From positions 1 to 47,719 of the forward strand of contig JALEWA010000063.1 in NCBI GenBank assembly GCA_022788085.1: a DNA stretch of 47,719 nt, written 5' to 3'. The position numbers and the translations under genes are program-made. The first letter of the stretch is position 1. Every line of letters begins with the position of its first letter. Under the pieces are notes generated by a model. The model was given only the letters and a program-made list of their open reading frames with translations, was not told the DNA's origin and ran no database searches. This document shows, in pieces, positions 23,786 through 44,081 of this stretch. The stretch comes from Lachnospiraceae bacterium (GTDB taxonomy: Bacteria > Bacillota > Clostridia > Lachnospirales > Lachnospiraceae).

Positions 23786-24916
23786 ATGGAATACAGAGTG
23801 ATGGAAAAGATCAATGCCAAAACTTCTCTTCTTGGTTTTGGCTGTATGCGCTTTCCTTTGAATCAGGATGGCAGTATTAATGAAGAAGAGACTTTTGAGA
23901 TGTTTGATCAGGCGTATCATGCCGGAGTTAATTATTTTGACACAGCATATCCATATCATAATGGAGCAAGTGAGCCGGTGACAGGAAGAGCGTTGGCAAG
24001 ATATCCAAGAGAATCCTTCTATCTTGCAACAAAGCTTCCCATTTGGGCAGTTAAGAGCATAGATGATGTGAAGAGGATTTTTGCAGAGCAGTTAGAACGC
24101 CTTAATATGGAATATGTAGACTTTTATCTGATGCATGCTCTAAATAAAGAAAGATGGGAAACAATCAAGAAGCTTGGGATTCTTGATTACTGTGAAGAAC
24201 TTCGAAAAGAAGGAAAGCTTCGTTATCTTGGATTTTCCTTCCACGATGATTATGAAGTATTTCAGGAGATCATTACCTCTTATAAGTGGGATTTTTGCCA
24301 GATTCAGTTAAATTACATGGATAAGGATACACAGGCAACAACAAAGGGTGTAGAGCTTGCAGAAAGCCTTGGAGTTCCTATGGTTATTATGGAGCCGGTT
24401 AAGGGTGGTTCTCTTGCAAATCTACCGGAGGACATTACGGAGAGATTCAAGGAAGTAAGACCTGACGCAAGTACTGCATCATGGGCACTGCGCTATGTGG
24501 GAAGCTTTTCGAATGTAAAGGTAATCCTAAGCGGTATGTCAGACAAAAAGCAGGTAGAGGATAATCTGAAAACTTTTTCAAAGTTCGAACCATTAAGCAA
24601 TCAGGAACAGGAAGTAATAGAAAATGTGGCAAAGACTCTTCACAGTCGTGTGAAGAATGGCTGTACCGCCTGTAAGTACTGTATGCCATGTCCTGCAGGT
24701 GTTAATATTCCGGGAAGCTTTCAGGTATGGAATGAATATCATGTTTACGGTAATATAAGAGAAACTACTTATAACTGGACAAAGGAAATACCCAAGGAGG
24801 CAAAACCCAAGAATTGCATTAAGTGTGGAAAGTGCGAGAAGGTCTGTCCGCAGAAGATACATATTCGTGAGGACCTGGAGAGCCTTCAGAAAGAATTGGA
24901 TGAAGTTGTAGGATAG
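23786..24916 (+). CDS. aldo/keto reductase with C-terminal [4Fe-4S] cysteines
   Basis: 376-residue oxidoreductase. Residues 1-290 are an aldo/keto reductase barrel with the catalytic Asp and Tyr in FDTAYPYHNG, Lys in ATKLP and His in FYLMHAL. The C-terminal ~85 residues contain CTACKYCMPCP and CIKCGKCEKVCP, ferredoxin-like motifs for one or two [4Fe-4S] clusters. This architecture is common in anaerobes; the substrate is not known. AAGGAGG sets the ATG, 12 bp after mfd, so it is probably co-transcribed. A terminator follows. Confidence 0.9.
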   Translation: MEYRVMEKINAKTSLLGFGCMRFPLNQDGSINEEETFEMFDQAYHAGVNYFDTAYPYHNGASEPVTGRALARYPRESFYLATKLPIWAVKSIDDVKRIFAEQLERLNMEYVDFYLMHALNKERWETIKKLGILDYCEELRKEGKLRYLGFSFHDDYEVFQEIITSYKWDFCQIQLNYMDKDTQATTKGVELAESLGVPMVIMEPVKGGSLANLPEDITERFKEVRPDASTASWALRYVGSFSNVKVILSGMSDKKQVEDNLKTFSKFEPLSNQEQEVIENVAKTLHSRVKNGCTACKYCMPCPAGVNIPGSFQVWNEYHVYGNIRETTYNWTKEIPKEAKPKNCIKCGKCEKVCPQKIHIREDLESLQKELDEVVG

Positions 24917-41368: not shown

Positions 41369-42907
41369 ATGATAAGAAGAAGTTTATCGATAGCAGCTGT
41401 GATGATGTCAGCAGTATTTGCGATGACAGCATGTGGGCAGGAAACTTCGCAGGCTGTGACGCAGGAAGAAAAACAGAGTGAAACAGAGGTGCAGACGGAA
41501 CAGGGACAGGACAATGAAACAGCTTCGGATGCATCTGATGAATCAAAATATGAGGATGCGGTACAAATTACATTATCCGATGAAGCAATAACCGTAAATG
41601 GGAAAGAGGCTGTAACAGAAGCTTCCGATACAGGGGCAGTATATATAAGTCATGATATTATTTATTATGAAGATAAGGATCAGTATGAAAGTGGTAATCC
41701 ATATGGTGAAGGAACGGATGATGACAAGCATTCTGCCGAAGAAGCAGCAGCTCATACCGTTGTCAATATTACACAACCGGGAACTTACCATATAACCGGT
41801 AAGCTCTCAGTAGGACAGATTTTTGTAAATGTTGGTGAGGAAGAAGAGGATAAGGTCACGTTAATCCTGGATGGTGTAGACATTACCTGTACGGTTGCAC
41901 CTGCAGTTATGTTCTACGAGGTATATGAATGTGATACAGATGCTTCCGAAGAGAATGCAAGCTATGAGGTTGATACAACAAATGCAGGAGCAAAGGTTGT
42001 TATTGCAGACGGTTCTGTAAATAATATATCCGGCTCTTATGTAGCACGTATCTATAAGGATAATGATGAAGAAAAGAAGCTTCATAAATACGATGGCGCT
42101 TTTTATTCCAAAATGAGTATGGAAATTACAGGTGAAGAACAGGGGGATGGCATTCTTAATATTATTGCTGCAAATGAAGGATTGGATACAGAAATGCATC
42201 TGACAATTAATGGTGGAAACATTAACATTAATTCTATGAATGATGGTATTAATGTGAATGAGGATGGCATCAGTGTTTGTACAATCAATGGTGGCAATCT
42301 GAATGTTCAGTCTATTGATGGAGAAGAAGGCGATGGCATTGATTCTAATGGATGGCTGGTTATAAACGGCGGAAATGTGTATGCCTCTTCCAATCCAAAG
42401 AGCCAGGATGCAGGTATTGATTCTGATATGGGAATCTATATCAATGGCGGAACAGTCATAGCCTGTGGCAATATGTACGATAATATTGAGGAAGCTTCAT
42501 CAGCAAACACAATGGTATTGCAATTTACAGACAGTGCTAAGGGAAAGCTTGTGATTAAGGATGAGAGTGATGCAGAGGTTCTATCCTTTGACTGTATAGC
42601 AGATTATTCGAATGTTGTTATTTCATCTGATGCATTGTCAGAAGGAACTTATCATGTATATAAGGATGAAAAACAGCTTTCCTATACAGGAACCATGATG
42701 GGAAAGGGTGGCAGACCGGCAATGGCAGAAGGCGAGAGAACTGAAAGACCGGAAGGTGAAGTACCACAGAACTTTGATAGTGAAAGACCTCAAATGGCAG
42801 ATGGTGAAAATGCTTTCGATAAGGGAATGCCGGAAACGAGAGGAGAGAAGAACTCAGATTTTGTAATACAAAAAGGTGTTAACTTATTTGGCGGAGTGAC
42901 GGAATAA
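41369..42907 (+). CDS. Cthe_2159-like carbohydrate-binding lipoprotein
   Basis: 512-residue exported lipoprotein. The signal peptide ends in the lipobox MTAC with Cys22 as lipid anchor, followed by a Gln/Glu-rich linker to ~60. The middle (~150-400) is a repeating beta-helix with INGGN turns (LTINGGNININ, CTINGGNLNVQ, LVINGGNVYASS, YINGGTVIACG) and Asp-rich loops likely to bind Ca2+. This matches the carbohydrate-binding family of Cthe_2159, whose founder binds cellulose and polygalacturonate. A low-complexity C-terminal tail (EGERTERPEGEVPQNFDSER) follows. GGAGG ~6 nt upstream sets the ATG. A role in holding acidic polysaccharide at the cell surface would suit the uronate locus upstream, but that is inference. 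Confidence 0.85.
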   Translation: MIRRSLSIAAVMMSAVFAMTACGQETSQAVTQEEKQSETEVQTEQGQDNETASDASDESKYEDAVQITLSDEAITVNGKEAVTEASDTGAVYISHDIIYYEDKDQYESGNPYGEGTDDDKHSAEEAAAHTVVNITQPGTYHITGKLSVGQIFVNVGEEEEDKVTLILDGVDITCTVAPAVMFYEVYECDTDASEENASYEVDTTNAGAKVVIADGSVNNISGSYVARIYKDNDEEKKLHKYDGAFYSKMSMEITGEEQGDGILNIIAANEGLDTEMHLTINGGNININSMNDGINVNEDGISVCTINGGNLNVQSIDGEEGDGIDSNGWLVINGGNVYASSNPKSQDAGIDSDMGIYINGGTVIACGNMYDNIEEASSANTMVLQFTDSAKGKLVIKDESDAEVLSFDCIADYSNVVISSDALSEGTYHVYKDEKQLSYTGTMMGKGGRPAMAEGERTERPEGEVPQNFDSERPQMADGENAFDKGMPETRGEKNSDFVIQKGVNLFGGVTE

Positions 42908-42926
42908 GTTTTAACATGAAATAAAT

Positions 42927-42976
42927 AAGCAGGACTAAATGGTATGTATCAAAAGCCTTTTGGTTCTGCTTTTTTG
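42927..42976 (+). terminator. terminator after lipoprotein gene
   Basis: AAGCAGGAC (42927-42935) pairs with GTTCTGCTT (42963-42971, one G-U pair) with an inner AAAA-TTTT hairpin and a T-run to 42975. Confidence 0.75.
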
Positions 42977-42977
42977 T

Positions 42978-43021
42978 GTGATAGGAAATTGCTGTAACAT
43001 AGTGGTAGCTAATCAAGAATT
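42978..43021 (+). repeat. 44-bp dispersed repeat, copy 2
   Basis: Matches 19264-19307 at 40 of 44 bases, same orientation, again directly behind a terminator T-run. The four differences are all transitions. Here it continues into a hairpin and terminator, not a promoter. Confidence 0.85.
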
Positions 43022-43068
43022 TGCTTTGCAAATTCTTGTGAGATGATGCCGCTGGGCATCATCTTTTT
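43014..43068 (+). terminator. paired hairpins with terminator
   Basis: CAAGAATTTGC (43014-43024), loop TTT and GCAAATTCTTG (43028-43038) form an 11-bp hairpin. GATGATGCC (43042-43050), loop GCTG and GGCATCATC (43055-43063) with five T's form a classical terminator. As no gene lies immediately upstream, they may end a small RNA that begins in or before the 44-bp repeat. Confidence 0.8.
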
Positions 43069-43091
43069 ATAGATTTTTACTAAAAGGAGCT

Positions 43092-43374
43092 GCATCGAAA
43101 TGCCTCGGATATGTCTGCATCGATGCTGTTTTTATTCTTTTAATATGTCATTGCATCGAAATGTCTCGTAATTTTATGTATCGATGCTGTTTATAATTCT
43201 TTGAAAAAGGAAACTACATCGAAAAGTATATTATATGTAAATATCGATGCTATATTCTTCATTTTTGAAAAAAAGTAGCATCGATATTTGGTGATTTGAC
43301 ATATTCCGATGATAGAAATTGAAAAAATGGTATTTTTGAGCATCGAAAAATTGAATGCCGGCTATTTTCGATGC
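43092..43374. repeat. array of five 35-bp inverted-repeat units
   Basis: Units at 43092-43126, 43153-43187, 43216-43250, 43278-43312 and 43340-43374. Each has 7-bp arms GCATCGA and TCGATGC exactly 21 bp apart; units 1, 2 and 5 are perfect, unit 3 has one arm change and unit 4 is decayed (right arm CCGATGA). Unit starts are 61, 63, 62 and 62 bp apart. The 21-bp interiors differ from unit to unit while the arms are kept. The spacers are A+T-rich, 26-28 bp, and partly alike. Confidence 0.9.
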
Positions 43375-43532
43375 AAAATAGGATTAAACATAGCATTAAG
43401 AGATATAAATAGTTTGGATGCATAATTCTCCAAAATTTCCACATAATATCCATACTACACAGGATATGGAAGGAAGATTAACAATAGTATGGAATACGAG
43501 GAAAGGAAATAGACAGGAGGAGTATTAAGCAT

Positions 43533-44081
43533 ATGAAAGCAACAGGTATAGTCAGACGTATTGATGATTTAGGGCGTGTTGTGATACCAAAAGAAATACG
43601 CAGAACCTTGAGGATTCGCGAAAGTGATCCGCTTGAAATATTTACCGATCATGAAGGAGCAATTATCTTGAAGAAATATTCACCGATTGGTGAGATGGGA
43701 AGCTTTGCAAAGCAGTATGCAGAAAGTCTTTCCCAGGTATCGGGGCATATCGCATTGATTGCAGACAGAGACCAGATTATTGCTGCGGCAGGAAGTAATA
43801 ATAAGCAATTCCTTGGAAAAAGCATCAGTAAGGAATTAGAGGAAAAAATGAATGCAAGGGAAACGGTAAGTGCTTCAAAAGGTGACAGGAAGTGCATTCC
43901 GGTTATAAAGGATCAGACAGAAGAAATCCAACATCAGATTATCATTCCTATCATAACACAGGGAGATATTATCGGGGCAGTAGTATTATTATCTACAGAA
44001 GCCGTGGATTCTATGAATGAAGTAGAGATGAAACTTGCACAGTCGGCAGCAGATTTCTTGGGAAAACAAATGGAACAATAA
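43533..44081 (+). CDS. spoVT: SpoVT/AbrB-type transcriptional regulator
   Basis: 182-residue regulator. Residues 1-50 are the AbrB-type DNA-binding domain (MKATGIVRRIDDLGRVVIPK, then EIRRTLRIRESDPLEIF). Residues ~58-180 form a GAF-like domain, so the layout and length are those of SpoVT, a late sporulation regulator active in the forespore of Bacillus. AGGAGGAG ~9 nt upstream sets the ATG. The five-unit inverted-repeat array lies 159-441 bp upstream and could be a site for this or another DNA-binding protein; that is only a suggestion from position. Confidence 0.93.
   Translation: MKATGIVRRIDDLGRVVIPKEIRRTLRIRESDPLEIFTDHEGAIILKKYSPIGEMGSFAKQYAESLSQVSGHIALIADRDQIIAAAGSNNKQFLGKSISKELEEKMNARETVSASKGDRKCIPVIKDQTEEIQHQIIIPIITQGDIIGAVVLLSTEAVDSMNEVEMKLAQSAADFLGKQMEQ

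Follow-up and report, generated by a model that had tools for sequence, protein, structure and literature searches.

A regular array of inverted repeats lies upstream of the sporulation gene spoVT in the window (the whole stretch of Lachnospiraceae DNA analysed, 47,719 nucleotides in length), and this arrangement raises the question of whether the array belongs to that gene, serves the chromosome in another way or is a repeat that merely came to rest there.

Results

Architecture of the array

The array consists of five 35-bp inverted-repeat units (43092–43374), with unit starts separated by 61, 63, 62 and 62 bp and an inter-arm gap of 21 bp in 5/5 units. The preliminary description of this DNA, made from the sequence alone, had reported five regular units with constant arms; the units and their gap proved real, but the arms GCATCGA and TCGATGC are exact in only three of the five, and the pitch varies between 61 and 63 bp. 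When gaps of 15–27 bp were allowed, the arm pattern matched only the three exact units in the window, against 0.01 matches expected, and 0/100 shuffled controls contained three exact arm-pair matches. The features are as follows.

43092..43126, + strand: unit 1, half-sites GCATCGA / TCGATGC 21 bp apart, exact arms
43127..43152, no strand: linker 1/2, 26 bp
43153..43187, + strand: unit 2, exact arms
43188..43215, no strand: linker 2/3, 28 bp
43216..43250, + strand: unit 3, left arm ACATCGA, opens the conserved three-unit core
43251..43277, no strand: linker 3/4, 27 bp, rich in A/T tracts (CATTTTTGAAAAAAA), kept across copies
43278..43312, + strand: unit 4, right arm degenerate, CCGATGA
43313..43339, no strand: linker 4/5, 27 bp (ATTGAAAAAATGG..TTTTTGA), kept across copies
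43340..43374, + strand: unit 5, exact arms, closing the element on the right
43216..43378, + strand: 163-bp core common to 16 copies in the genome, free of indels in 15 of the 16

The proposal that all units face the same side of the helix holds only approximately. The helical repeat of DNA is 10.5 bp per turn, which makes 62 bp equal to 5.9 turns, and one linker is 12 bp shorter in a subfamily of copies described below; helical phasing of the units was therefore retained as suggestive only. A strong terminator-like hairpin, absent from the consensus scan, occupies 43040–43065, just before the array.

Relation to spoVT

The array ends 159 bp upstream of spoVT, on the same strand, which is the natural ground for regarding it as an operator or leader of that gene. 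A spoVT match at E 1e-30 was obtained in 35/38 genomes of the genus, the genome of origin included, and spoVT loci were examined in 29 of the 34 other genomes, with the gene start found in 28 and up to 330 bp taken upstream; the congener G001 (83% complete) has no spoVT match and hence stands outside this comparison. An array unit is present in 0/28 of these upstream stretches, whereas 25/28 keep a promoter-like box, ACARATAMTAG, which forms the second half of the longer box GMATAAAAATCC..ACAAATAMTAG found in 13/28. In the window, the sequence GCATA-N17-CATAATA (43420–43448) lies upstream of spoVT and presumably fits the sigma-G promoter consensus; by inference, it corresponds to the ACARATAMTAG box of the relatives. 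Since the relatives lack the unit and the element is dispersed, with the identical element type occurring beside unrelated genes (see below), the array is not a feature of spoVT, and a regulatory role as spoVT operator or leader is scarcely credible. The copy near spoVT is incidental to that gene.

Dispersal in the genome of origin and its relatives

The genome of origin (G000) comprises 3.69 Mb in 254 contigs and is 96% complete. A DNA search of it with the element gave many strong matches, and the genome search suggested in the preliminary description, for GCATCGA-N21-TCGATGC with ≤ 3 mismatches, was fruitful, returning 173 forward matches against 47 for a reversed-pattern control. A sequence model without base pairs (R1) was built from 16 G000 copies, which it recovers by construction, and it added three copies of a diverged subfamily (C140, C97 and C15b), giving 19 loci. 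The copies have 3–6 units each as counted by eye; two of them with five or more units (C26 and C198) also start with steps of 61 and 63 bp, and in the C225 copy (L050 1642-1944) one unit appears by eye to be tandemly doubled. A single unit on C48 was excluded from the alignment and the counts.

Scanning the genus at E 0.001 gave matches in 3/38 genomes (G000, G001 and G017) and none in the remaining 35; the two model matches in G017 proved to lack arms when inspected and were treated as false. G001 carries eight loci, six with ACACCG/CGGTGT-type arms and two (C81 and C73) with CATCG-type arms, so that CACCG replaces CATCG on both arms in most copies of this genome. When one copy of this genome is taken as reference, six further stretches at different places are 93–96% identical to it, among them a 94-bp fragment (C53) left out of the eight loci; C139 and C46 share upstream sequence as well and may be a segmental copy. 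In a sample of the family, 1/299 genomes matched, namely G000 itself, under stricter filters, at which weak matches may drop out. Another pattern, which had matched 72/98 fetched loci, many of them overlapping, was found in six contigs of an 84,980-species collection from which G000 is perhaps absent, all six belonging to one uncultured Lachnospiraceae metagenome-assembled genome. Two patterns gave 0 matches in viral contigs, and the core of one copy (C187) was unmatched in phage and plasmid records. The element is known so far from two related Lachnospiraceae genomes.

Both neighbouring genes were called at 22/27 loci, and relative to them the element lies in the same sense (5), antisense (10), between convergent genes (5) or between divergent genes (2). 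The neighbouring ORFs were called mechanically and those overlapping the element by > 60 bp were skipped, which favours an intergenic placement; without this filter, ORFs of at least 80 aa overlap the element in 4/17 loci (C26, C187, C56 and C86), and of these only the C26 ORF resembles a true gene, one that would probably start later. Of ten neighbours scanned, eight had a family, among them SpoVT, GGDEF, LysR, PHP, PfkB and, adjoining copy C19, a PD-(D/E)XK nuclease family transposase; they have no common theme.

Other small repeats were encountered in the same genomes. A separate palindromic MITE of ~170 bp, with the ends CTAGTAC..GTACTAG, is co-resident in G000 and G001 (L152–L158 are the G000 and G001 copies together), and in three cases (G000 C239a; G000 C56, as a 57-bp part; and G001 C41) it adjoins the array element on the left side. 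Its copies are located as follows.

G000: C243:294-466; C82:3802-3967; C239 near 24690-24857
G001: C41:6805-6974; C32:3927-4093; C56:7424-7591; C137:2178-2353

At 32 other places, G000 contains a short hairpin repeat around GTATCTATTCAGTACCTTCATAGATAC (query ~13–64 of L044:1840-2150:-), which is another unnamed small repeat family.

Constraint within the element

Comparison of the copies resolves the element into a half-site, RCATCGR, arranged in inverted pairs 28 bp centre to centre and repeated every ~62 bp, with A/T-tract linkers. Over the 163-bp core of 16 copies, the mean pairwise identity is 0.949 for the arm core, 0.83 for the linkers, whose conservation the preliminary description had not mentioned, and 0.654 for the interiors; the two arm edges stand at 0.579 and 0.726. 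Parsimony assigned 10 changes to the 30 arm-core columns, 72 to the 54 linker columns and 172 to the 63 interior columns. The suggestion that interiors are free to vary is thus accurate in that they differ between the units of one array, but among the copies they are homologous by position. Among the 96 half-sites of the last three units, C2, A3 and C5 are invariant (96/96) and the full CATCG core is present in 85; position 4 is T in 86, C in 6 and A in 4. At the edges only A or G occurs, apart from three T at position 1.

Selection on the arms is supported by these counts and by the youngest divergences. In the three closest copy pairs, 0/46 differences fall within the arm core, for which the chance under equal rates is ~9e-5, and in six pairs pooled the figure is 5/140, against a share of 30/163 columns. 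The constraint accordingly persists near the tips of the tree, and this could reflect either host selection or copies that are still active.

The evidence for selection on spacing, to which the preliminary description had pointed, is weaker than that for selection on the arms. The distance from unit 3 to unit 5 is 159 bp in 24/25 copies overall, including 9/9 measured diverged copies, although in eight of these nine unit 3 has an altered left arm (ACCCCGA or ACCCTGA) that was accepted as an arm partly by its distance, so that they are not fully independent; G001 C11 and C73, without a full unit 3, were excluded from the measurement. Only one indel accompanies 286 changes in the array element, but the co-resident MITE, used as a yardstick, likewise has few, with 68 changes and a single internal indel (another gap in the count falls outside the MITE end), and the fixed length is therefore not clearly unusual and was set aside as proof of selection. 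Unit 3 is preceded by a linker of 16 bp in the four diverged copies for which it was measured, against 28 bp in the window.

Double-stranded site or transcribed hairpin

The arms might alternatively form the stems of a chain of RNA hairpins, transcribed as a small RNA or a leader. For the window copy, the predicted fold of either strand is more stable than that of shuffled sequences (z −3.97 and −7.21), for which repeated palindromes are by themselves a sufficient cause, and the arms pair in 89% of cells in the true register against 12–46% when slid, as expected of any palindrome. The replacement of CATCG by CACCG on both arms in most G001 copies is in favour of pairing, as are the RNAalifold consensus fold of −16.5 kcal/mol, with three pairs changed on both sides, and the agreement at position 4 between the arms of neighbouring units (27/32 against 23.7 permuted, p 0.009, in one of six tests). 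With the exception of this last result, no compensatory base changes above background were found among the 16 copies: arm pairing was 89.0% of cells against 89.2% in shuffles, with a covariation score of 0.103 against 0.106; the RNAalifold covariation term is 0.11; and the agreement of edge bases within units did not exceed that of permuted data (20/48 against 23.1 and 27/48 against 26.5). A standard pair is lacking at the outer position of unit 3 in 8/16 copies and at the inner position of unit 4 in 11/16. A promoter scan of 42900–43560 found 0 promoters, an Rfam search of eight loci gave no gathering-score match to the elements and only tRNAs (sub-threshold Rfam matches in the window were taken as chance), and all orientations relative to genes occur among the copies. 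RNA hairpins are therefore disfavoured, and the hairpin-chain explanation as a whole seems improbable to us. Since the two arm sides do not change together, the sequence data favour a half-site RCATCGR that would be read in double-stranded DNA; of the two possibilities raised in the preliminary description, protein sites or hairpins, the former is the better option.

Discussion

Nature of the element

The array is probably one copy of a family of small, non-coding, dispersed intergenic repeats of the MITE/BOX-like type, whose half-sites would be read by a protein acting in trans. Its observed basis is the dispersal, the modular unit number, the constraint on half-sites over interiors, the lack of excess pairing covariation and the lack of a fixed orientation to genes. 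A protein provided in trans would bind the half-sites as duplex DNA, the likeliest candidate being the transposase or recombinase responsible for spreading the element, and unit number may have changed through tandem duplication; the element would thus probably be a passenger mobile element with paired protein-read motifs.

Several observations bear on such mobility. The left end of the element is variable and the right end common; the outermost arms form an inverted repeat, as do the arms of each single unit. The variable left end showed no clear terminal inverted repeat, and the idea that the core as a whole is inverted-symmetrical about unit 4 was rejected (48/117 positions outside the arms matched, against 42.5 in shuffles, p 0.25). 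No obvious target-site duplication was seen in the flanks read by eye, and no autonomous, longer version sharing these ends was seen in the 254-contig assembly of G000. On C239 two inverted copies stand 11.7 kb apart; that they bound a composite transposon was considered and rejected, as none of the 10/13 ORFs (≥ 130 aa) scanned was transposase-like. Moreover, the arms are intact in diverged copies, which exceeds the needs of a dead passenger and counts against the mobile-repeat explanation.

This last point also favours the view that the array serves the host as a set of nucleoid, segregation or chromosome-organising sites, selected at each place after copying. The absence of arm-core changes in the three closest pairs is in accordance with it, as are the arms kept intact while the interiors are only 65% identical, and the linker before unit 3 that differs by 12 bp, or roughly one helical turn, in the four diverged copies. 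The spread of the element is narrow, however, with matches in 3/38 genus genomes (one of them false by eye) and 1/299 of the family sample, and this argues against a core chromosomal function, which close relatives would be expected to carry. We know of no factor with a site of RCATCGR pairs, and we regard a host-serving array as unlikely, though worth keeping in mind. A combination of the two is slightly more doubtful still: a mobile element might spread nucleoprotein scaffolds, with the phased RCATCGR pairs remaining under selection once inserted, owing to their use by a DNA-organising protein of the host, and the shift from CATCG to CACCG might track a change in that protein.

Comparison with known repeats

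The preliminary statement that the array matches no known repeat class was too strong, since the layout resembles that of small interspersed repeats of the BOX and MITE type. The BOX elements of Streptococcus pneumoniae (boxA-boxB(n)-boxC), as presented in PMC3049150, are small, dispersed and modular, with variable internal units and a mean of 122 copies in pneumococci; they are regarded by the authors as non-autonomous parasites and cluster with other small repeats. They are the nearest to the array element in layout and behaviour, including its clustering with a MITE. The array element differs in that a single half-site pair recurs in all its units at a fixed pitch of ~62 bp, in that no separate end modules were found, and in its 19 copies in G000 against that mean (PMC3049150). 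With MITEs (RUP, ERIC and others), the element shares a short, non-coding, dispersed form without its own transposase, being found at 19 + 8 loci, but apart from the arms it shows no clear terminal inverted repeat; background is given in reviews of MITEs (PMC10969869) and of small mobile sequences (PMC2229807).

REPs are palindromic extragenic units that are often clustered (PMC3733652), and the array element, being palindromic, intergenic, multi-copy and clustered, might accordingly be of the REPIN type and be moved by a RAYT (Y1) transposase. One Y1_Tnp match was indeed found in G001, but G000, the genome with most copies, has none (PF01797, E 1e-5), even though the domain is present in 20/38 genomes of the genus, which makes the RAYT route unlikely. 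The element further differs in its fixed pitch and in constrained half-sites without pairing covariation, and no constant GTAG tag was seen by eye beside the units. Taken together, we consider a REPIN-type origin very improbable.

Multi-site transposon ends, such as those of Tn7 and Mu, carry several protein sites along an end. The array element shares this serial layout, its own sites being putative, and differs in that no enzyme gene, with Y1_Tnp as the family searched genome-wide, and no two-ended element was found. Among the matches listed in our literature search on Lachnospiraceae small dispersed repeats, the arm sequences and array phasing, nothing concerned this element or any small dispersed repeat of Lachnospiraceae.

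For the biology of these bacteria, the lesson is that a repeat adjoining a sporulation gene need not regulate that gene. Half-sites are constrained even between copies that diverged recently, which makes it testable whether the element's own mobility or use by the host maintains such elements.
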